In this document: positions 4,483 through 49,549 of the stretch, in pieces
Layout of the letters: every line of letters starts with the position of its first letter
Numbering within the stretch: position 1 is the first letter of the stretch
IMG/VR virus record: IMGVR_UViG_3300024265_000073
Span: 1 to 49,549 of that record
Length of the DNA stretch: 49,549 bases
Strand: one strand, 5' to 3'
Origin: a virus
Notes under the pieces: model-generated
Database searches by the model: none
Told to the model about the DNA's origin: nothing
Seen by the model: the letters and a program-made list of their open reading frames with translations, nothing else
Position numbers and translations under genes: made by a program

Positions 4483-5283
4483 CTAGTGTCGTCTTCCAGT
4501 TGTGCGACCACCACCTCGACGTCGGAGACGTCCAAAGTCCTGGCCAGTTTGTTTCTCTACATTCTCCATCTTGGTGAGATGCCGATGCCGCTGAACGCGA
4601 ACCTCGGAGCGCCGAGAAAGTTTGTCGATCTCTCGTGTGGAACCGTCTTTGTAGAGGTCAAAAAACAAAGCCCTCGCTTGGAACTTGAGCTGATTGAACA
4701 GGTGCTCCGGGAGATCCGGGACTGATAAATCGGTCAAGGCTAGCAAGGGCTTAGTCTTTCCATAAGCCAACGATTTGCTGGCTTGTAGATTTGAGTCGAG
4801 GTTGCGGTCATACGCATCGAAGATGAAATGGTCCTCGCCTTCCAGGAATGTCCAGAAGGTGGGCTGTACGTCATTCCGTACCAGCATCTCATATCCGCTT
4901 TCCAGCGTGACTGACTCGACAGTTGGATCGTCACTCGCACGCGAGGACGTCCAATCAATAAATTCATCTGCGTCCTGATACCGAATCTTCTCAAACTTGT
5001 TCGGATCAGACGTAGCGTTCTTGATATTGTAACGAACCCATTCGACATCATAGAAGCCTGGGGGTCGTAACATAACATTTGGTGTAGCGACGGACGTTGC
5101 GTCCAGTTCTACGATACCTTCCTTGTACTTGATATCGGTGCCATCTTGGATCTGATTAAAGATCGTGCGTACGACACGGGCGCACTGCTCTGCTTCTACG
5201 GTGGCCGAGATTGAATTCACAGCATCGCTGTCTGCATCCGACAGGATGTCTTGTACAATTTGTAGCAGGTTCTCTTTAGCCAC
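4483..5283 (-). CDS. head-to-tail adaptor, T7 gp11-like (tail tubular protein A)
   Basis: 266 residues. The N-terminus is an adaptor-like helical segment (LLQIVQDILSDADSDAVNSI) followed by QCARVVRTIFNQI. A beta-rich middle contains PPGFYDVEWVRY, FIDWTSS, and PTFWTFLEGEDHFIFDAYD, patterns found in podoviral gp11-type adaptors. The tail is very basic (RLRRRGGGRTTGRRH). It should form the dodecameric ring between portal and nozzle. It lies after a hairpin separating it from the capsid genes and before the nozzle gene. Confidence 0.8.
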   Translation of the reverse strand: MAKENLLQIVQDILSDADSDAVNSISATVEAEQCARVVRTIFNQIQDGTDIKYKEGIVELDATSVATPNVMLRPPGFYDVEWVRYNIKNATSDPNKFEKIRYQDADEFIDWTSSRASDDPTVESVTLESGYEMLVRNDVQPTFWTFLEGEDHFIFDAYDRNLDSNLQASKSLAYGKTKPLLALTDLSVPDLPEHLFNQLKFQARALFFDLYKDGSTREIDKLSRRSEVRVQRHRHLTKMENVEKQTGQDFGRLRRRGGGRTTGRRH

Positions 5284-14180: not shown

Positions 14181-14200
14181 ACAATCAACTAGTTGATTGT
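14181..14200. promoter_or_regulatory. perfect 20-bp palindrome (operator-like)
   Basis: ACAATCAACT and AGTTGATTGT are exact inverse complements with no spacer. It lies 57-76 bp upstream of the candidate -35 element of the early promoter. A perfect dyad of this length in a divergent control region is typical of a dimeric repressor or activator site. It could also be another member of the hairpin family that fills the adjacent region. Confidence 0.5.
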
Positions 14201-14232
14201 TATACAGTTCGGATAGTTTCCACTCTGCTCAA

Positions 14233-14274
14233 AATCCACACCATGTCAACCTACGGTTGACTATGGTGTGGATT
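14233..14274. repeat. 19-bp near-perfect hairpin overlapping early promoter
   Basis: AATCCACACCAT-GTCAACC and GGTTGAC-T-ATGGTGTGGATT form a 19-bp stem with loop TAC and one bulged T. The right arm contains the TTGACT of the candidate early promoter, so cruciform extrusion or protein binding here would directly affect that promoter. Confidence 0.75.
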
Positions 14275-14285
14275 CCATATATGCT
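14257..14285 (+). promoter_or_regulatory. candidate sigma70-type early promoter
   Basis: TTGACT (14257-14262), a 17-bp spacer and TATGCT (14280-14285). The start would be near 14292, giving a leader of about 96 nt with a strong hairpin (14331-14367) before the first early gene. The -10 is weak (4/6). Confidence 0.4.
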
Positions 14286-14330
14286 ACGTCATGCGCCCGG
14301 TATCTACCACGCGAGGCAAAAGTGGGGCTA

Positions 14331-14367
14331 GGATTCCCCCCTCTTCACGTAGTGAAGGGGGGAATCC
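14331..14367 (+). repeat. leader hairpin before first early gene
   Basis: GGATTCCCCCC-TC-TTCAC, loop GTA, and GTGAA-GGGGGG-AATCC form a 16-bp stem with a 2-nt bulge. It ends about 10 nt before the AAGGAG of the first gene. It may protect the mRNA 5' end or control ribosome access. Confidence 0.75.
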
Positions 14368-14387
14368 GCCCCAACAAGGAGTTCGAA

Positions 14388-14612
14388 ATGTCCATGACCA
14401 ATTCGCTGCAACAGCTAGCTTTGCTAGCTGGATACAAACCGGAGCCAGTGCCGAAGGCACTTGACTTCGACGACGGTTACACAGGCTATAGCGATTCGTA
14501 CAACTACTTCGTAGTTGACTACGACGACCTGATTGAGTCGCACCATCAAGCTTTGCTTGATGAATACGACATTATCGCCACACTCAGCGAAGCTGAGGCC
14601 AACTGGAGCTAA
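14388..14612 (+). CDS. small acidic early protein
   Basis: 74 residues, starting at the ATG preceded by AAGGAG (14377-14382). It is acidic and rich in Tyr and Asp (DFDDGYTGYSDSYNYFVVDYDDL). No family was recognised. The coding DNA holds five short hairpins: 14412-14430 (8 bp, loop TTT), 14447-14461 (loop GAA), 14501-14517 (loop TTC), 14544-14562 (8 bp, loop TTT) and 14583-14597 (loop GAA). As first early gene it may act on the host at once after entry; that is inference. Confidence 0.7.
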   Translation: MSMTNSLQQLALLAGYKPEPVPKALDFDDGYTGYSDSYNYFVVDYDDLIESHHQALLDEYDIIATLSEAEANWS

Positions 14613-14613
14613 C

Positions 14614-14817
14614 GTGACAATCACACGACGCTACATAGGCTATGTTGCTGGCCGGTCCATTATCCTACCGGATAATGTAGATCGGCTGGCTTACTGCCAA
14701 CGATTCAAAGTACCAAGCGATTGCTTGGTACTTAGGTACTCCGAGCTACAATGTTCTGTGAACATTGAGTTCGCCACTCCCCACAACTTGCCGAAGGCAA
14801 GGAAGGACATGAAATGA
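14614..14817 (+). CDS. small early protein, GTG start
   Basis: 67 residues. GTG at 14614 lies directly after the previous stop and is preceded by GGAGCTAAC. The sequence (VTITRRYIGYVAGRSIILPDN) reads as a small beta-rich domain with two cysteines. Its gene contains three strong hairpins, among them an 11-bp perfect stem (14708-14733, loop GATT) and 8-bp stems at 14658-14677 and 14749-14767. No family was recognised. Confidence 0.6.
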   Translation: MTITRRYIGYVAGRSIILPDNVDRLAYCQRFKVPSDCLVLRYSELQCSVNIEFATPHNLPKARKDMK

Positions 14818-15074
14818 CCACACGTAACGTCATGACCGTAGAGCAAGCTCTACGTAGTGCTGCTGCCGAGTTCATGGCAGATCGAGGCCCTCAACTGTTC
14901 ATCACAGATGAACAGGTTGAGAGGGAAATGTCCACTAACATGCTCCAGTGTAGTTCCCAATGGGAACGACTGGAGTTCTATGGCCTGCCCCTCATCGAAG
15001 ATGAGGGATTCTACGATGACACTCCAGTTACACTGGAGGTCATTACACTCGATGCTCCGCCTCGCGCACAGTGA
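14814..15074 (+). CDS. small early protein of unknown function
   Basis: 86 residues, start overlapping the previous stop as ATGA. It is acidic and mainly helical at first (VEQALRSAAAEFMADRG), then mixed (TDEQVEREMSTNMLQCSSQWERLEFYG). Hairpins lie at 14837-14854, 14890-14921, 14943-14975, 14989-15007 and 15022-15038, so nearly half of the coding DNA lies in inverted repeats. The function is unknown. Confidence 0.65.
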   Translation: MTTRNVMTVEQALRSAAAEFMADRGPQLFITDEQVEREMSTNMLQCSSQWERLEFYGLPLIEDEGFYDDTPVTLEVITLDAPPRAQ

Positions 15075-15102
15075 TTACCGCGTGCGAGGCACCGAGACCC
15101 TA

Positions 15103-15150
15103 TCTCTCTCGTCAGGGGAGGAGTCTTACGACTCCCCTGACAGAGAGAGA
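15103..15150 (+). repeat. long intergenic hairpin
   Basis: TCTCTCTC-GTCAGGGGAG...TC, loop TTAC, GACTCCCCTGAC-AGAGAGA forms a stem of about 20 bp with a 3-nt bulge. It lies between the genes ending at 15074 and starting at 15208 and may be an RNase III-type processing site or stabiliser. A related purine/pyrimidine stem lies at 19126-19173. Confidence 0.75.
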
Positions 15151-15207
15151 AGGGGAGAGTTTTGAAAACCCAACAGACGAGGCCCAAGTGGTCCGAAGGA
15201 GTTGAAA

Positions 15208-15558
15208 ATGGGTGACAAGAGAACGAGCATGAAGGACGTACTCAACGCAGTTGAGTCGCAGACCCAGAGCATTGATGCTCTGGTCACGGCATTAACCGCC
15301 AACGCTATTGCCCCGGCAGCTATTGCTGCCCCGGTAGTTGATGGTGGCGAAGCGCCGAAGGTCGAGGTAGCCGAAGGCTACATGGCTAAAATGACCGAGA
15401 AGGCAGCCAACCACGCCACTACCAAAGGTAGTGAGGTCGTGCTTTATGCACGAAAGAACCAACGTGGCGAGACCAAGCTGGCCTATGCACTGAGGGATCG
15501 CTTCGATTCGCTCAATGACAAGGGCTTGATTGGCGCTGTCGGCACATTCCAGCCGTAG
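15208..15558 (+). CDS. small early protein, Ala/Val-rich
   Basis: 116 residues, ATG at 15208 preceded by AAGGAG. The N-terminus is charged and helical (DVLNAVESQTQSIDALVTAL), an Ala/Pro linker follows (NAIAPAAIAAPVVDGGEAPK), and the C-terminal half is charged (MTEKAANHATTKGSEVVLYARKNQRG). It resembles a two-part protein with an oligomerising helix and a small domain. Hairpins in the gene are at 15240-15256, 15264-15282, 15315-15330, 15367-15381 and 15417-15433. No family was recognised. Confidence 0.65.
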   Translation: MGDKRTSMKDVLNAVESQTQSIDALVTALTANAIAPAAIAAPVVDGGEAPKVEVAEGYMAKMTEKAANHATTKGSEVVLYARKNQRGETKLAYALRDRFDSLNDKGLIGAVGTFQP

Positions 15559-15595
15559 GCTGGAGTGTTCAGGGTAACACAGCATAGCTGTGTTA
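15544..15595 (+). terminator. tandem hairpins at gene end
   Basis: CATTCCAGCC-GTA-GGCTGGAGTG (15544-15566, one G-T pair) spans the stop codon and is followed by TAACACAGC-ATA-GCTGTGTTA (15575-15595, perfect 9 bp). No T-run follows directly; a run of seven T lies at 15687-15693. They may end or stabilise the first early transcript rather than form a classic intrinsic terminator. Confidence 0.45.
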
Positions 15596-16054
15596 TCTTG
15601 AGCATTAAGCGGAGTGGCACATCACTCAGATAATCTTGCGACGGTATACCACGCTCGATTGTGTTTGTTTGTGCCTACTCCCACACTTTTTTTGCCCGTT
15701 GGATTTGACATAACGTCACTGTTCTTTGATAGTGGCATCTAGTCTCATAGGACTGAACCCATAGGTGAAACACAGGCTCGGTAGTTGACGTCCATGCCCT
15801 ACCTAAGTAGCCGTGCTATATGGGGAACGACCGTCGAGTGTAAAGCTGGAGCCACTATTAAAGCATAGAACGTGTGTCTTGAGTGACCAACACCTATGTA
15901 TTGGACGCTTGCTCTCACCAAGTAGCGATGACATTAGAGTCAGAGCTACGCTGTCACTGGTAAGGTACTTGAAGTACCTAACCCTGTGGACCAGAGGTTG
16001 AGTGTAAAGGCAGGCGTCCACCTATTCTACCACTGTCCTATTAAGGAGGACACC
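15559..16054 (+). other. 496-bp gene-free segment: transcription boundary and structured leader
   Basis: No convincing coding frame is seen. From left to right it holds the second tandem hairpin, a T-run at 15687-15693, a sigma70-like promoter at 15705-15733, and then about 315 nt of likely leader RNA. The leader can form GGTAAGGTACTT/AAGTACCTAACC (15959-15983), GTGGAC/GTCCAC across 15986-16021, and crossing pairings TAGC/GCTA with TGACA/TGTCA (15923-15957). GAGTGTAAAG occurs twice (15836 and 16000). This could be a non-coding RNA or a cis-acting regulator of the gene at 16055. Confidence 0.5.
15705..15733 (+). promoter_or_regulatory. candidate sigma70-type promoter inside the early unit
   Basis: TTGACA (15705-15710, perfect -35), 17-bp spacer, GATAGT (15728-15733, 4/6 of -10). 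It lies just after a T-run, as expected where one transcript ends and another starts. The start would be near 15740. Confidence 0.5.
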
Positions 16055-16447
16055 ATGAACCAAGTGAAACTGAGGTATGCAAGGGAACGACTGAGTTCCA
16101 TCGTTGCACTGAAGTGTAGTGCAGTACCGGGGTATGACCATGAGGACGAGCTTGAGTGGGACGACGTACTCAAACGTCTGCGTGCTGGCACAGCCACCGT
16201 CAACTGGAACACCATTGGCAAATCGAAGAACCAATGGGGCCACAGACATGGCATTAGCGACAGTATCGAGCATCAGGTTGTCGGCAAAGAGAACGCTGCT
16301 ATTGAGCGGCGTAACAAGGCAGCCAATGTCCGTCGTGACAAGGCCCAAGAGAAGATACGTGCAGCGGGTCGCCGGGTAGAGGACGAGCTAGTGTTGGGTG
16401 ACGAGGCCAAGGCAATGGCCCTGCTTGACAAGTTCGCTGCCTCATGA
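16055..16447 (+). CDS. basic early protein of unknown function
   Basis: 130 residues, start chosen for the strong AAGGAGGA at 16043-16050. The N-terminus is helical (VKLRYARERLSSIVAL), and a long basic helix ends the protein (IERRNKAANVRRDKAQEKIRAAGRRVEDEL), which could bind nucleic acid. It overlaps the pseudopilin gene by ATGA and follows the structured leader. No family was recognised. Confidence 0.65.
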   Translation: MNQVKLRYARERLSSIVALKCSAVPGYDHEDELEWDDVLKRLRAGTATVNWNTIGKSKNQWGHRHGISDSIEHQVVGKENAAIERRNKAANVRRDKAQEKIRAAGRRVEDELVLGDEAKAMALLDKFAAS

Positions 16448-16911
16448 GGGGCTTCTCACTTATCGAGCTGTTGATTGCACTAGCTATCGCTAGTATCCTG
16501 GCAATGGTCGCTGGCCCCCTGATATTTGGGGGCATCGACTGTAAGAAGCAGAGGATAGGGTGGATACCTAGTGCCAAGGTAAGTGCTGCTATTGGTGAGG
16601 TAGGCTCGGCCTACCTTGACCTCTTACGTAGGACTGAGTTCATCCAAGGTCCCATTGACATCGGTGAAGTGGACCTTGGCCTTGATTATTGGGGCAACCC
16701 TTATCAGTTCCTCGACCACTCAACTGTCAATGGCAATGGACCCAAGCGTAAGTACAAGAGCAACGTACCTGTCAACAGCAGGTATGACTTCTATAGCATG
16801 GGACCAGACGGTAAGACAGCCACACCTATGGTGTCGGAGCCGGGTGGTGATGACATTGTAATAGCTAACGACGGCAGCTACGTAGGTGTAGCCTGCTTCT
16901 ACGGAGACTGA
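16444..16911 (+). CDS. type II secretion GspG-like major pseudopilin
   Basis: 155 residues. MRGFSLIELLIALAIASILA is a class III prepilin leader: a short basic leader, Gly3 before Phe4, and Glu8 (the conserved Glu5 of the mature pilin) within a hydrophobic helix. The C-terminal domain has DYWGNPYQF, then RYDFYSMGPDGK and GDDIVIANDG, the pattern of the GspG/type IV pilin-like domain with its Asp-rich calcium loop. Cellular GspG proteins have about 140-150 residues, so the protein looks full length. A host prepilin peptidase would be needed to process it. No other secretion genes are present, so it may join or poison host pili or secretion fibres. Confidence 0.85.
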   Translation: MRGFSLIELLIALAIASILAMVAGPLIFGGIDCKKQRIGWIPSAKVSAAIGEVGSAYLDLLRRTEFIQGPIDIGEVDLGLDYWGNPYQFLDHSTVNGNGPKRKYKSNVPVNSRYDFYSMGPDGKTATPMVSEPGGDDIVIANDGSYVGVACFYGD

Positions 16912-18979: not shown

Positions 18980-19186
18980 ATGTGGAATAAGATCATGGAG
19001 TACGTGTTAATCGCCGTCATCGTAGGTATCATCATGGTGACATTACTCATAGCTGGAACGCTGCTCTTACCTGTGTTTGTATTGGGCTGCGGCACACTAA
19101 CAGTAGCTTGGGTGGTAGTGAAGTTCTCCTCTCTCTTCCGTCGGAGCGAAGCGACGACGGAGAGAGAGAGGAGGGAAGGTGGATGA
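18980..19186 (+). CDS. two-span small membrane protein
   Basis: 68 residues starting at the ATG after GAAAGGAGTG. Two hydrophobic spans (YVLIAVIVGIIMVTLLIAGT and LLPVFVLGCGTLTVAWVVV) are followed by a basic end. The end of its coding DNA is the large hairpin at 19126-19173. The function is unknown; a small host-membrane effector is possible. Confidence 0.55.
   Translation: MWNKIMEYVLIAVIVGIIMVTLLIAGTLLLPVFVLGCGTLTVAWVVVKFSSLFRRSEATTERERREGG
19126..19173 (+). repeat. purine/pyrimidine hairpin at a gene junction
   Basis: CTCCTCTCTC-TTCCGTCG pairs with CGACGG-AGAGAGAGAGGAG over about 18 bp with one offset base. The right arm carries the GAGGAGGG ribosome-site purines for the gene at 19183, so folding could hide that site. 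Confidence 0.7.
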
Positions 19187-20085: not shown

Positions 20086-20309
20086 GTGACGAAGAGGTAG
20101 TAACCAAGGACATTGGGCTAGCTGATCAGTTGACAATGGATGACTTCATCCGTACACTGGTGGCTCAGATGTTCGAGAACGACAACGACACAGCCGAGCT
20201 AGAGGTTGTACTCAAAGGGTCCGAGGGGCAAGAGCCACCGCGCCTCATGCTTCAGTTGAAGCTGACCTCCATCAACGGACAAGCTACAGAAGGAGAGGAC
20301 AATGGCTAG
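20082..20309 (+). CDS. small acidic protein upstream of the MoxR ATPase
   Basis: 75 residues (MSDEEVVTKDIGLADQLTMD..., TAELEVVLKGSEGQEPPRLMLQLKL). Acidic, alpha then beta. It overlaps the AAA+ gene by 8 nt and supplies its GAAGGAGAGG ribosome site, so the two are likely co-translated. No family was recognised. Confidence 0.6.
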   Translation: MSDEEVVTKDIGLADQLTMDDFIRTLVAQMFENDNDTAELEVVLKGSEGQEPPRLMLQLKLTSINGQATEGEDNG

Positions 20310-21390
20310 TGGCGGTTCACTAAAGGGTAAGTACGACAGCGATATCATCGCTGCTATTGTCGAGACCAAGCAGCAGGAGGACCTTGCTAATGTCACGGAC
20401 CCATTCACTGAGATCGAAGACTACAAGGTGGACGTACCTGCCGGGTCAGTCCTGTTCAGTAAAGCGTTCTGGAAACCCAAAGAGATACCCGATCTGGCAA
20501 TCACTATGTTCAAGCCCGAAGATTGGGACGAGGAAGCACAGTTTCATATACCAGCGGTCGATCCCAACTGGATTTGGAACAAGCAAGTTACGGAAAAGTT
20601 TGCTCTCGCTATGTACTGCGGCGATACCACTCTACTGCACGGATTACAGGGAACCGGTAAGTCGTGCCTTGCCGAACAGTGGTGCGCTAAGTTTAAGATT
20701 CCAGCGTGGCGCATGTCATGTAACCGAGAGACAAGGGAGGCCCACTTCCTAGGCTCACCATCAGTGGAGTACAATGATGAAGGACAAATGTTCATCAAGC
20801 AAGAGCCAACGATTCTCACTGATAGCCTCCGGTATGGAGGGATGTTCATTGAGGATGAAGCGTTCAGACACAACGCAGCTCTCGTCCTCCAAGCACTCCG
20901 TGAAAAGAATACTCGCAGCATCCTACTTCCTGATGCACCGGGTCGAACATCTGAGGAGCGTAAGCTCGTTGCACCTGACGGTCGATGGTGGTACACACTC
21001 ACGGACAACACATGTGGATCTGGAGACGAGACAGGTATCTTCGACGCTGAGGTGCAAGATGCCTCCACGCTTGACCGCATCGGCGCATCAATTGAAGTTA
21101 AGTACTTGGGCAAACCTCAAGAACGTCGCATCCTCAAGAAACATTGCAACCTGAACACACCCATACTTGATGGGATGCTCGACTTCACCAAGCTAGTACG
21201 CAAGGCGTTCGAGCAGCAGAATCTACTGGCTACACTCAGTGTTCGGTCCCTGTTAGCATGGGCCGAGAAGATTGAAATGACAGGTAGCATAGAGACTGGC
21301 CTCAAGATGTCATGGTACGACAAGCTGTGCAATGACGACAAGGCTACCGTTCGGGATATGTTCCATCAAGTATTCGAGAGGGCCTTATGA
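20302..21390 (+). CDS. MoxR/CobS-type AAA+ ATPase
   Basis: 362 residues. Walker A is GLQGTGKS (114-121), Walker B MFIEDEA (E184-D185-E186), with RETREAHFLG after Walker A typical of the MoxR/CbbQ/NorQ/CobS branch and an Arg-containing segment DASTLDRIGASIEV for sensor and arginine finger functions. Such ATPases form hexameric rings that remodel targets with a VWA-domain partner (NorQ-NorD, CobS-CobT, RavA-ViaA). The VWA partner is encoded by the next gene, overlapping by ATGA. An N-terminal 100-residue region before the AAA core may bind substrate. Target unknown. Confidence 0.85.
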   Translation: MASGGSLKGKYDSDIIAAIVETKQQEDLANVTDPFTEIEDYKVDVPAGSVLFSKAFWKPKEIPDLAITMFKPEDWDEEAQFHIPAVDPNWIWNKQVTEKFALAMYCGDTTLLHGLQGTGKSCLAEQWCAKFKIPAWRMSCNRETREAHFLGSPSVEYNDEGQMFIKQEPTILTDSLRYGGMFIEDEAFRHNAALVLQALREKNTRSILLPDAPGRTSEERKLVAPDGRWWYTLTDNTCGSGDETGIFDAEVQDASTLDRIGASIEVKYLGKPQERRILKKHCNLNTPILDGMLDFTKLVRKAFEQQNLLATLSVRSLLAWAEKIEMTGSIETGLKMSWYDKLCNDDKATVRDMFHQVFERAL

Positions 21391-23300
21391 AGAAGATCAG
21401 CTCAGTACTCGACGTCAACAACTTGACCAGCGTACTACAGCGGCGGTGTAACTCAATGGGTATCACCCTTGAGTGGTCACAGACTAAGCACATCGCCATG
21501 ACTGACGGGCAACGCATCATACTGCCCGCCATCCACCAACCAGTAACCCAAGAGGCATTGGATAATTTGTATGGGTATGTGATCCACGAATGTGGACACC
21601 ACTCTAGGGCCGAAGCGTTCACCATTCTCAATGCAGCGAAGCCACCGCAGGCACTGTGTGCTATGTACAACATCGTGGAAGACGATGCAATGGAGCGGGA
21701 CGTAGCTCGAGCCTATGCTGGTGATGCCAAGGCACTCGGGCAGCACAACGCACGTACCATTAAGAAGATCGGTGAGACATGGAAGGAGACCATTGATACG
21801 TGGCCCGACGACATAACCGAGCAGGACATGGCACCAGTAGCGGTCACCGCACTGAGCCAGCTCTCTCGTATGTCGTGGGACAGCTACTCCAACGTGAGTC
21901 GGCACATCTTCATGAACAACCTGCATCCGGTAGCTAAGAAGCTGACCGATGATCTGGTAAGTGAGGGTTGGGTCGACAAGATGGAGCAGGTCGGTGACGA
22001 GCATGACACTTGGGACCTAGCTGTTGACCTAGTGAAGCGGCTGTATCCTGACGCTGACGAGGAGCAGCTTGAAGAGTGTCGCCAAAAGGGACACGACGGC
22101 CCCTCTGAAGAGGGTGAAGGTGAAGAAGGTGAGGGCCAGAAAGGAGAAGGTGATGGTCAAGGTGACGGTGAGGCCCAAGGTAAGGGAGACAACGGTGAAG
22201 GCAATGATGGAGAGGGGACTGGAGAAGGAGATGCTACTGAAGGCGATGGACTCACTGATGGCGAGGGCAAACTTCCCGGTGAGGGTAAGGTTATCCATTG
22301 GAAAGAGGCAGTAAACTCACAACATGACGAGTGGCAGGCCAAAGATTTCAATGCACCTGCCGGTAACATCGGCATTGACTGGACCGACTACAAGACAGGC
22401 AAAGTAGCGCTCATGCCACAGAAGCTGATCAATGTGGTGGACTGCACCAAGAAAAGCAGCGAGCCAATTGAAGATCACAAGTACTACCGTAGCTGTGGTA
22501 TACCTGAAGCGTTCATGCCTGACAATAAGGAGAGCCGAGCCTTTGCCAACCAGATCAGGCGGTATGTGCAAGCCCAAGCTAGGGTGAGGTTCGAGCGAGA
22601 CAAGTACCACGGTCGGCTGGACAAGGGCAGCATAGTCAAGCTAGTCCTACCACCCATTGATGGTGGTGAATACAACAAGCGTCTGTTCTATCAGATGCAC
22701 AAGGCAGAAGCACAAGACACGTGCATCATGGTGCTTACGGACTGGTCCGGCTCAATGCAGGGACAAAAGATGGTACATGCAGCAGATGCCAGTGGTCGCT
22801 TAGTGCAGGTGTTCGACCGCATACTGCGGATGCCAGTACAACTGGCCGCCTTCACTAACGGCAGATCCAGGTGCGACATTGGCCTCATCAAGAAGTTCGA
22901 TGATCGCAGCGTGTCTCCATTAGACATAGCCAGTGGGTTCTCCAAGTTCTACAAATACAGCTCAGCTAACAATGACGCTGATGCTGTGATGTGGGCATAC
23001 AACCAGATAAGGAACCGCAAAGAGAACCGCAAGATACTGATGGTACTCAGTGATGGGTGTCCAGCAGGCACATGGATGCGTGGGTGTGGCAGTAGCAACC
23101 TGTCCTACGTTACCAACCATATCCAGAAGGAAGGCAAGGTAGAACTCTATGGTGTGGGCATATGTTCCGACGCCGTGGAAACCTACTACGAAAACGTACA
23201 GGTCTTGGAAGATGAGACCCAAATCAACCGAGCACTATTCGAGATCATTAAAGGAGGCGTTAAAAATGCCAGACAACGAAGAGTACAACAAGATCATTGA
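21387..23300 (+). CDS. CobT/NorD-like VWA protein with HExxH site
   Basis: 637 residues in three parts. Residues 1-220 are helical and carry VIHECGHH (H67, E68, H71) and NIVEDDAMERD (E98), an HExxH...E arrangement that could bind zinc. Residues 230-300 are a Gly/Glu/Asp linker (EGEGEEGEGQ type repeats). Residues 440-630 are a VWA domain with the MIDAS motif DWSGSM (D452), then AAFTNGR and VLSDGCP. CobT and NorD have the same order of helical part, acidic linker and VWA. It is coupled to the MoxR gene. It may be a protease or remodelling adaptor; activity unproven. Confidence 0.82.
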   Translation: MKKISSVLDVNNLTSVLQRRCNSMGITLEWSQTKHIAMTDGQRIILPAIHQPVTQEALDNLYGYVIHECGHHSRAEAFTILNAAKPPQALCAMYNIVEDDAMERDVARAYAGDAKALGQHNARTIKKIGETWKETIDTWPDDITEQDMAPVAVTALSQLSRMSWDSYSNVSRHIFMNNLHPVAKKLTDDLVSEGWVDKMEQVGDEHDTWDLAVDLVKRLYPDADEEQLEECRQKGHDGPSEEGEGEEGEGQKGEGDGQGDGEAQGKGDNGEGNDGEGTGEGDATEGDGLTDGEGKLPGEGKVIHWKEAVNSQHDEWQAKDFNAPAGNIGIDWTDYKTGKVALMPQKLINVVDCTKKSSEPIEDHKYYRSCGIPEAFMPDNKESRAFANQIRRYVQAQARVRFERDKYHGRLDKGSIVKLVLPPIDGGEYNKRLFYQMHKAEAQDTCIMVLTDWSGSMQGQKMVHAADASGRLVQVFDRILRMPVQLAAFTNGRSRCDIGLIKKFDDRSVSPLDIASGFSKFYKYSSANNDADAVMWAYNQIRNRKENRKILMVLSDGCPAGTWMRGCGSSNLSYVTNHIQKEGKVELYGVGICSDAVETYYENVQVLEDETQINRALFEIIKGGVKNARQRRVQQDH

Positions 23301-29736: not shown

Positions 29737-29938
29737 TACCAGCGGCATGAGTATGGACATCAATGTGATGTACTACTACTTCACGATGGATCAATTCCAA
29801 AACGTGACGCATGTGAACTATGCGTATGATGATCCGACTGGTCCGTATTCACAGAACATAGGGGACTTCGCTACTTTCAAGTCGATGAACCCCGGCTACT
29901 TATACATACCGGTGCCCTCTAGTGTCATCGGGAAATGA
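29717..29938 (+). CDS. small Tyr-rich protein
   Basis: 73 residues (MNVQLTSTSGMSMDINVMYY..., VTHVNYAYDDPTGPYSQNIG), beta-rich and aromatic. Overlaps both neighbours. No family was recognised. Confidence 0.55.
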   Translation: MNVQLTSTSGMSMDINVMYYYFTMDQFQNVTHVNYAYDDPTGPYSQNIGDFATFKSMNPGYLYIPVPSSVIGK

Positions 29939-30338
29939 GTACGCCAGCAAGTTCGAGGCTCGCATCGCCAAAGAACTTGGAGAGGCAGGAGTGTCGTTTA
30001 AGTATGAGGAAATTTCCTATGAGTACGACGAGCCACTCAGGAAGAATAGGGCCAGATGCGCAGATTGCGATAGCACAAATCTATTGCGAACAGGCTGGTA
30101 TACCCCTGACTTCTTTCTGGAAACGGGAGTCATCATTGAAACTAAAGGTAGGTTTACTGCGGCTGATCGTCGCAAGATGCTCGCCGTCAAGCAAGATCAC
30201 CCCGATGTGAACATAGTGATGTTGTTCATGCGGGACAACAAGATACACCGCAACAGCACGACGTTCTACAGTGACTGGTGTATGGAGAATGGGTACGAGT
30301 ACGCTATCGGACACCCCAAACAGGAGTGGTTGAAATGA
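29922..30338 (+). CDS. endonuclease I (Holliday junction resolvase), T7 gp3-like
   Basis: 138 residues, GTG start. The fold signature GVSFKYEEISYEYDEP, YTPDFFLETGVIIETKGR and IVMLFMRDNKIHRNSTTFYSDWC is that of T7 endonuclease I. Catalytic residues are E29 or E30, D63, E73 and K75. The insertion CADCDST adds a C-x2-C pair often seen in phage homologues. It should resolve branched replication intermediates before packaging and may help degrade host DNA. Confidence 0.9.
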   Translation: MSSGNEYASKFEARIAKELGEAGVSFKYEEISYEYDEPLRKNRARCADCDSTNLLRTGWYTPDFFLETGVIIETKGRFTAADRRKMLAVKQDHPDVNIVMLFMRDNKIHRNSTTFYSDWCMENGYEYAIGHPKQEWLK

Positions 30339-48400: not shown

Positions 48401-49549
48401 TCCATCCACTCAAAGGCACCTGTTACAAAGCGCTTATCAGTAACACTCAGCTCGTAGAACGGCTTGAACATGAACTCGAAGTTCTTAACAAGCTGCTGCT
48501 CCTTGATGTAAGCGTTAGCGAAGCTACCGTAGATGTCATCTAGCCCACTACCTAGTCTGCCGTTGGGCGCTACTAGGACACGTGGTATGATGCCTGTGTT
48601 CTGGAATGTCTCTGGCCCCATTGTCTTGTTGTCAACATTGTGCCAGAAGCGTTGGTGATTGTAGCGTAGGTAGAAGTCCTGCCTTAGCCCCGGTTGATTC
48701 GGAGCCGCGCTAATGGGAGCATCCACCTTGAATGCTGCGCGGAGGAACTCCTCACGGTTAGCAAAGACAGGGCCTACAATACCGTCGTCGGTGATACGCA
48801 CCAGTTCGAAGAGTTCCCCTTGGGGATCAATCTTGAACAACGCATCAACTGCTTCGTCGAAGCTAGACCAGCCACCCTCGACGGTCTCGCCTAGAATAAC
48901 GTCCAGCTCCATGCCTGTCTCATTCGGAAGCATCCGAACGGTGGACATGGCTGTGTGTGGGTAGGCTATGCCATCTGCCACATCGAGCTTCTCTAGCTCT
49001 TGGGTTAGTACCTTGCGCTTATCGCGGACGTTTAGTCCAGCGCCTGTGAACCCATCTGTGGTCTCTAGAATCTCGGAGCGAATCCGCTCGGAGCGTTCTA
49101 GTACACGCTTAGCGCCATCGGGCAGCTCATCAATATCATTGACAAACCGTGACGGGCGGGGGAGTAGGACGGGGACTGCGTCATCCGCAGGCATCCGCCA
49201 CTCTGCTGCTACATCATCGTACTGCATGTCAATGTCAAACTGACTACGTGACTTGGTCTGGTTTGTGATGCGAGCCGCTTGACGGTACGTGGAAGCATCT
49301 GTCCCTCGTATCATACCGCGCATTCCCTGGCCGAACGCTCGCATGAGCGCGGCAGAGAAGATGGCTTCAAGGCCAAAGGCCACATCACCGACAATCCGGT
49401 CTATTGTATTCTTGTCATCCTGTCCAGTGAGTACACCTTCGGTGAACGTGTTCTCCATGAACTCTAGGTAGCCATACTTCGTGAGTAGCGGCCCCCATAC
49501 GGGGCTGTTCAGTAGCTCGTCGCTCTTAAGAGCAATGCGCTTAACCGCC
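45460..49549 (-). CDS. giant internal virion (ejection) protein, C-terminal part, open at the window edge
   Basis: The frame is open to the right edge and joins the 315-codon part at 1-945 on the closed circle (about 1614 residues). A start at the internal ATG 49458 (MENTFTEGVLTGQDD) would be wrong, since upstream codons are open to the true ATG at 945. Central regions contain GYHFRFYDDPYFIVKHT and QTLHREGRLFWDDRN. The C-terminal 500 residues have ALRDFMQRIGFDWGERNN and a hydrophobic helix (ILMGTYLLFGANMFGG), like other large ejection proteins. No lytic transglycosylase motif was found. It probably takes the T7 gp16 role. Confidence 0.85.
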   Translation of the reverse strand, partial: AVKRIALKSDELLNSPVWGPLLTKYGYLEFMENTFTEGVLTGQDDKNTIDRIVGDVAFGLEAIFSAALMRAFGQGMRGMIRGTDASTYRQAARITNQTKSRSQFDIDMQYDDVAAEWRMPADDAVPVLLPRPSRFVNDIDELPDGAKRVLERSERIRSEILETTDGFTGAGLNVRDKRKVLTQELEKLDVADGIAYPHTAMSTVRMLPNETGMELDVILGETVEGGWSSFDEAVDALFKIDPQGELFELVRITDDGIVGPVFANREEFLRAAFKVDAPISAAPNQPGLRQDFYLRYNHQRFWHNVDNKTMGPETFQNTGIIPRVLVAPNGRLGSGLDDIYGSFANAYIKEQQLVKNFEFMFKPFYELSVTDKRFVTGAFEWMEDFGKAHGRAPELVEIYAKYDGITESQVKGMVAVRSGYDVMHELFNRRLYREFSVAGFKTARPTQANLPTFHGKSLDRAQVRPGEFLDPLTGEGVRLRTRDLDDLYNAGDSIMELDIAVSASTSARSQYNQVIVGPGRGYEVGELSTRPLVYYPGYHFRFYDDPYFIVKHTDDMSVNGQISGVPIKDAIRTAGTKLEGEGFAKRLGDLDAKTGRYNDRKDTAVSYEVVRARDISQTENTLMQKQTLHREGRLFWDDRNFDRLPDVNNNRSTIEDFVPSLERGIAIIARQLTHEDLLKGFKGAFTEEYGDLVPRGSFDVKSMAEIVKELRVSRANTSSDPLKKRYNEAIELVNYFRLISGTESVAIPKMREAMISLGYTFNRLTKDIPGSMPVSRMLDRYAQQMDPTRTMRSVAFHAFMVFRPFRQAFLQSLQVSYLAPLDPIYVGSGRVFGDAVALRVGVSRLRDSGFDTGMSKSKWAKVMGLSAKEYTHLIKQFERSGLLELVNVHSFAGGARRFNKQALPDSAAGHIGYRGKQMTVALRDFMQRIGFDWGERNNLTFTYMVALRRHMKKNKLKSVLDIDARDWDVIGLDASNLALGMMRPNNFGYQTGLASVGTQFLSFGHKAALGILGQNPAITKLQGVKILMGTYLLFGANMFGGRDWVEEQLTVMGVADAQIPGIDGATLVDLISAGIVETGINKIREVTMEDTKDIDLGFAAPGLNAKQMWEMQIETIIKQPAMAVLGAFGNVFSNTLESFQFASWYASGNPDMDPVDKFAFTADAMLRGFFPQYNDVAMAHLGWQMQEWYSASGEALPIRPTMDAILARGLLGARTREELNYYELQGELYENQAEIDDIVEKNKDFLVRLINLKQGGELTRENFHKYAAMLNNMFESWPEGVRTVIRERSFMEDLANGDPSVASQLIEAMDDGTFRPNMNHMIDNMPDIPPQERERLKLLAEEVWTDFQQLDKRELDRIEEQQ
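49360..49549. repeat. terminal direct repeat, right copy
   Basis: It repeats bases 1-190 with T at 49423 instead of C at 64. See the left copy. On the circle the two are the same locus, within the giant internal protein gene. Confidence 0.95.

Follow-up and report, generated by a model that had tools for sequence, protein, structure and literature searches.

In vivo, DNA hairpins in duplex genomes have known roles at a few isolated sites, the promoters of phage N4 among them. The N4 hairpins have a loop of 3 nt that contains a sheared G:A pair, and they extrude when the DNA is supercoiled; the N4 genome enters the cell with its leftmost part first (PMC4496689). In phage T5, the injection stop signal is a cluster of inverted repeats and palindromes that is thought to fold and to hold the DNA during two-step entry (PMC13250531). 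Short hairpin-forming repeats are also typical of REP/BIME, attC and similar families, and d(GCGNAGC) mini-hairpins with GNA triloops are known as oligonucleotides and as parts of aptamers. Here, we describe an array of mini-hairpins in the early region of a phage genome that resembles each of these systems in part. It shares with the N4 promoters the 5-7 bp stem, the 3-nt purine-N-A loop, the C-G closing pair and the early position, and with d(GCGNAGC) the C-(R-N-A)-G loop rule, although those mini-hairpins are not known as genomic arrays. As in REP/BIME and attC the units are short hairpin-forming repeats, but in those families the units share sequence, whereas the array units do not. No description of such arrays was found in the open-access literature, and a 2026 survey of inverted repeats considered arms of at least 10 bp (PMC13155455) and would therefore miss most of the stems described here.

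The whole stretch of DNA analysed (the window) is a 49,549-base IMG/VR virus record that represents a near-complete, circularly permuted podophage genome, as judged from the 126-bp overlap of its ends (65-190 identical to 49424-49549), which closes the contig circularly and leaves a 64-nt extra piece at the start. PHROG families matched include portal, large terminase, tail appendage and internal virion protein, and the nearest named phages by terminase are the Zobellviridae (about 55% identity). A tRNA search found none, and no match was obtained in Rfam, in a nucleotide search of named phages or in a host search with the portal protein against genome contigs. Early and replication genes lie on the plus strand from about 14 to 36 kb, with structural genes on the minus strand on both flanks, and the cumulative GC skew turns near 14 kb, where gene orientation also flips. 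In ICBM2 and LUZ24, which have the same layout, the minus-strand packaging side and the plus-strand early side are separated by a direct terminal repeat, and synteny with these phages would place the leading genome end of the window near 13.7-14.2 kb, directly before the array. Further into the plus-strand genes, a MoxR/CobS-like ATPase followed by a CobT/VWA-like protein (20302-23300, plus strand) is conserved close to the early region both in the clade and in ICP2.

The array occupies positions 14181-15595 and comprises about 20 perfect inverted repeats with stems of 6-11 bp and mostly 3-nt loops closed by C-G. Its proximal part includes two longer intergenic inverted repeats, one with a C(TAC)G triloop at 14229-14275 (core 14245-14261, outer stem bulged) and one with a C(GTA)G triloop at 14333-14369 (core 14343-14357). 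These are followed by hairpins at 14412-14430 (8-bp stem, loop TTT), 14447-14461 (6 bp, GAA), 14501-14517 (7 bp, TTC), 14544-14562 (8 bp, TTT), 14583-14597 (6 bp, GAA), 14658-14677 (8 bp, 4-nt loop TACC), 14708-14733 (11 bp, 4-nt loop GATT), 14749-14767 (8 bp, TGT), 14787-14801 (6 bp, GAA), 14837-14854 (8 bp, 2-nt loop AA), 14895-14915 (9 bp, ACA; 8 bp unchanged in the related contig L013), 14953-14967 (6 bp, AAT; identical in L013), 14989-15007 (8 bp, GAA) and 15022-15038 (7 bp, TAC). The distal hairpins are found at 15240-15256 (7 bp, GCA), 15264-15283 (9 bp, 2-nt loop TG), 15367-15381 (6 bp, GAA; within the p118 gene and identical in L013), 15417-15433 (7 bp, AAA; one pair changed in a compensatory manner in L013), 15548-15564 (7 bp, GTA; spanning the p118 stop codon) and 15575-15595 (9 bp, ATA), the last of the array. 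Stems of at least 8 bp with loops of 2-4 nt number 10 in this region against 4 in the remaining 48 kb, or 11 if 14181-14200, whose 2-nt loop TA is itself self-complementary, is added, and stems of at least 7 bp per 1.5-kb bin number 13 from 13.5 kb, 7 from 15.0 kb and about 1 elsewhere. Two long near-perfect inverted repeats that are bigger than the array units were also seen, at 15106-15151 and 19126-19175.

An earlier note, made by reading the window alone, had pointed to this hairpin-rich early region, which is real and stronger than first claimed, with extra stems such as 14895-14915 and 14181-14200. All nine stems that it listed are present where it had placed them, the single correction being that the repeat given as 15264-15282 ends at 15283, and the C-GAA-G loops that it saw at 14453, 14589, 14793, 14997, 15373 and 17540 were confirmed. 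Its suggestion that the array continues to 19.2 kb held up poorly, as past 15.6 kb the density drops to near background.

The terminase scan returned 80 related contigs, and in seven distinct relatives whose early region is covered an array is present at the same place (L010/L020, L021, L028, L031, L015, L013 and L022). Lesser arrays were found in L026 (truncated), L041 (small, with five sites) and L035 (two or three sites), and more distant relatives have none. In the TerL tree all array genomes fall into a single clade (support 1.0), and the array is found in every member in which the early region is covered. All array genomes are metagenomic, and CobS scans for further members gave partial contigs only. 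Scans of the named phages ICP2, PA11, CW02, CVT22, GP100, MEP401, ICBM2, T7 and LUZ24 (ICP2, CVT22, GP100 and ICBM2 being partly covered) as well as of T2S2, T5S1 and MW202697 detected no array. It is absent from every cultured or named phage examined.

The stem sequences are mostly unrelated between the window and the seven array relatives, and many hairpin sites have been gained or lost among the genomes compared. Compensatory changes in the stems, which the earlier note had proposed to look for in related phages, are present, and retained stems are usually re-paired by double changes (window/L013; L015/L021/L020), as exemplified by cactaccAAAggtagtg / cacttccAAAggaagtg and caccaccGAAggtggtg / aacaaccGAAggttgtt. 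Retained stems are thus re-paired while sites come and go, and what is conserved is therefore the number and quality of the hairpins, not their positions.

The shape of the unit was derived from a pool of eight arrays, 15 kb in all, in which stems of at least 6 bp were counted by loop length, giving 186 stems with 3-nt loops, 15 with 2-nt loops and 20 with 4-nt loops. The closing pair is C-G in 154 of the 186 triloop stems, a count that is not fully independent across the relatives (92 distinct inner stems among the 154), and the commonest 6-bp stem occurs only three times among these 154 hairpins. By class, the 186 loops comprise 86 R-N-A, 74 T-N-Y and 26 others. What matters is not GAA itself, the loop highlighted in the earlier note, but a loop of 3 nt that is closed by a C-G pair and reads R-N-A or, as the complement, T-N-Y. 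R-N-A with C-G closure is the rule for DNA triloops in which a purine and A form a sheared pair, and the N4 promoter has just this arrangement. ANA triplets, like GNA, form such sheared-pair triloops, and in the arrays ANA is about as common as GNA. The excess of stems over the rest of the genome sets in at 5-6 bp and is greatest at 7 bp. The optimal unit has a stem of about 7 bp, a 3-nt loop, C-G closure and R-N-A on either strand, and 15-35 repeats occupy the initial ~1.5-2 kb of the early region. Neither the stems nor their 30-bp flanks yielded a consensus, with almost no information outside C-RNA-G, and the sites are spaced irregularly (median 53 bp) with no sign of the 10.5-bp helical phasing that was looked for. 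In the conserved coding parts of the eight arrays, 107 triloop stems were observed against 7.8 in the codon-preserving shuffles that the earlier note had called for (sd 2.4, maximum 13 in 200 shuffles). Intrinsic terminators (a GC stem followed by a T tract) numbered 6 between 13.5 and 20 kb against 3.9 expected, and none of the array stems is one.

The array DNA encodes conserved small proteins. Three small plus-strand early ORFs are found at 14388-14612 (weakly conserved in L013), 14614-14817 (GTG start, holding several stems, with no homologue found in the search) and 14814-15074 (86 aa, 77% identical in L013), followed by the 116-aa p118 gene (15208-15558, plus strand), which sits at the distal array end in each genome that has an array. 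Measured from the p118 stop codon, the sites extend from about 2 kb to 0.4 kb upstream; an extra hairpin lies on this codon or within 5 nt of it in G000, G002, G003, G005 and G006. By sequence scan, p118 is found in all array genomes and nowhere else. It had no match above threshold in Pfam, PHROG or PDB, and a fold search with a low-confidence model gave no significant match. An ORF of the same layout in G009 reached an hhalign E-value of 0.006 at a probability of just 6%, and another is present in G016, the arrays there being small or almost absent. The p118-like layout (helical N-terminus, linker and small C-terminal domain) was seen at 3446-3823 in L041 and at 4797-5144 of the G016 contig, and these two ORFs are possible remote homologues of p118. 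As an obligatory partner of the array p118 was rejected, given the similar-layout ORFs beside few hairpins in G009 and G016 and the clade-wide occurrence of the array. The latter also means that the link between p118 and the array is confounded by descent, and p118 is a candidate partner protein whose linkage may reflect shared descent only. Beyond p118, about 450 bp (15600-16050) hold no convincing gene before the next ORF and include a sigma-70-like promoter matching at 10 of 12 positions (15705-15733). The early ORF at 16444-16911 (plus strand; 52% identical in L013) encodes a pilin-like protein with a type IV prepilin-like N-terminus, MRGFSLIELLIALAIASILA, and a weak PHROG pilin match.

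Pairing and strand symmetry bear on whether the hairpins act as DNA or as RNA. Seven-pair stems number 135 when perfect, and 31, 35, 33 and 36 when they use G-T, A-C, C-T and A-G, respectively, while a single internal mismatch within the first seven pairs occurs in 24 stems against 135 perfect ones and is G-T in just 2 of the 24. With repeated stems removed, R-N-A and T-N-Y loops number 41 and 44, the symmetry that a duplex extruding both strands predicts. Because G-T is no commoner than other mismatches and neither strand is preferred overall by loop type, selection appears to act on DNA rather than RNA, and we have little doubt that the array is selected at the DNA level for perfect Watson-Crick pairing and conserved across the clade. 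Hairpins in the early mRNA that serve its stability, its processing or an RNA-binding protein would fit the location in coding and presumably transcribed DNA, the conserved hairpins at the p118 stop codon and the loop TCT, which is commoner on the mRNA strand (8 against 0 for AGA, p=0.008, one of six types tested) and leaves room for a strand-specific component besides the overall symmetry. We nevertheless regard such an RNA role as unlikely, since stems selected as RNA should tolerate G-U and the loops are of 3 nt, not 4 nt; E. coli rRNA, a crude control, has more stems containing G-T than perfect ones, unlike the arrays. Of the roles suggested in the earlier note, mRNA processing sites are thus not supported, extruded DNA signals are supported by the Watson-Crick-only pairing, the strand-symmetric loops and the likeness to N4 promoter hairpins, and binding sites for an unknown protein may still apply. 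In N4 itself, the same hairpin scan picked out three triloop hairpins of the promoter type, at 94, 563 and 4552. The likeness in stem and loop geometry, together with the early position, would also suit promoters of the N4 type, each hairpin being recognised by a virion or early single-subunit RNA polymerase. However, a phmmer search with a 1667-aa segment of the N4 virion RNA polymerase (vRNAP), meant to cover the polymerase core, recovered N4 and had no match in the ORFs of G000-G009, and Pfam searches of large virion proteins revealed no giant virion RNA polymerase (a PF00940 search was uninformative, its controls themselves being unmatched). N4 has three promoters with conserved stem bases and a start site, whereas the arrays have 15-35 sites, mostly in coding DNA and equally in both orientations, with no conserved stem bases or downstream motif. 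Individual promoters are therefore highly improbable.

Our overall best reading, to which we assign a probability of roughly one half, is that the repeats are micro-cruciforms that supercoiling can extrude, that they lie at what is probably the leading genome end and that they act in entry or early infection. The array region would become negatively supercoiled after injection, and the repeats would then extrude as micro-cruciforms, as the N4 promoter hairpins do. Taken separately, action by extrusion is slightly favoured on the N4 analogy, and a role in entry or early infection, for which T5 offers the parallel, is conceivable but rather doubtful. Given that the stems share no sequence, that sites come and go and that both orientations occur, the array would act as a whole through its structure and not as individual sequence-specific promoters. 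It could offer a redundant set of sites to a protein that binds triloop hairpins, or it could brake or anchor the leading end of the genome topologically, much as has been proposed for the T5 injection stop signal. The T5 signal may be the nearest functional analogue, as both would be inverted-repeat clusters in the first-transferred DNA, the position in the window following from synteny only, but it also has other repeats and DnaA boxes, whereas the array consists of unique short triloop stems inside conserved genes. The phage also encodes a T7-type endonuclease I (29922-30338, plus strand; Pfam PF05367, 1.3e-26); as a junction resolvase, this enzyme should cut extruded cruciforms, which counts against our reading.

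Three further explanations deserve weight beside extruded micro-cruciforms. A replication-start platform, with a primase or initiator binding hairpins near an origin, agrees with the turn in GC skew near 14 kb, although gene orientation flips there as well, but the strand symmetry misfits lagging-strand priming and related phages replicate without arrays, which makes it as unlikely as a role in RNA. Somewhat less probable still is a counter-defence or decoy function, in which the hairpins occupy or overload a host system, Lamassu/DdmABC or SbcCD-like, that senses the secondary structure or topology of DNA. Systems of this kind exist and have been described as detecting stem-loop hairpins (PMC12904381), and the leading-end position suits early action, yet hairpins would more simply trigger these systems. 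The array could also be a functionless by-product of mutation, if perfect short inverted repeats keep arising in a hot spot through template switching or quasipalindrome correction. Site positions do turn over fast, and the loop rule could reflect the stability of snap-back priming, but decay should then be common, whereas single internal mismatches are rare, and density and place are conserved in all clade genomes with the region covered, so that we consider this very unlikely.

With caution, as the chances seem slightly less than even, we propose that the array represents an undescribed kind of genome signal, namely a redundant array of sequence-unrelated, supercoil-extrudable triloop micro-cruciforms in coding DNA at the leading end that would be read collectively by structure, through a dedicated hairpin-binding protein or as an entry brake or anchor. 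In these phages, dozens of perfect DNA hairpins are kept within genes, with compensatory changes. The arrays provide a natural comparative record of the features by which short inverted repeats would extrude (a stem of 7 bp, a loop of 3 nt, closure by C-G and R-N-A), and through them one can ask directly whether phage genome entry or early expression is under the control of DNA secondary structure.
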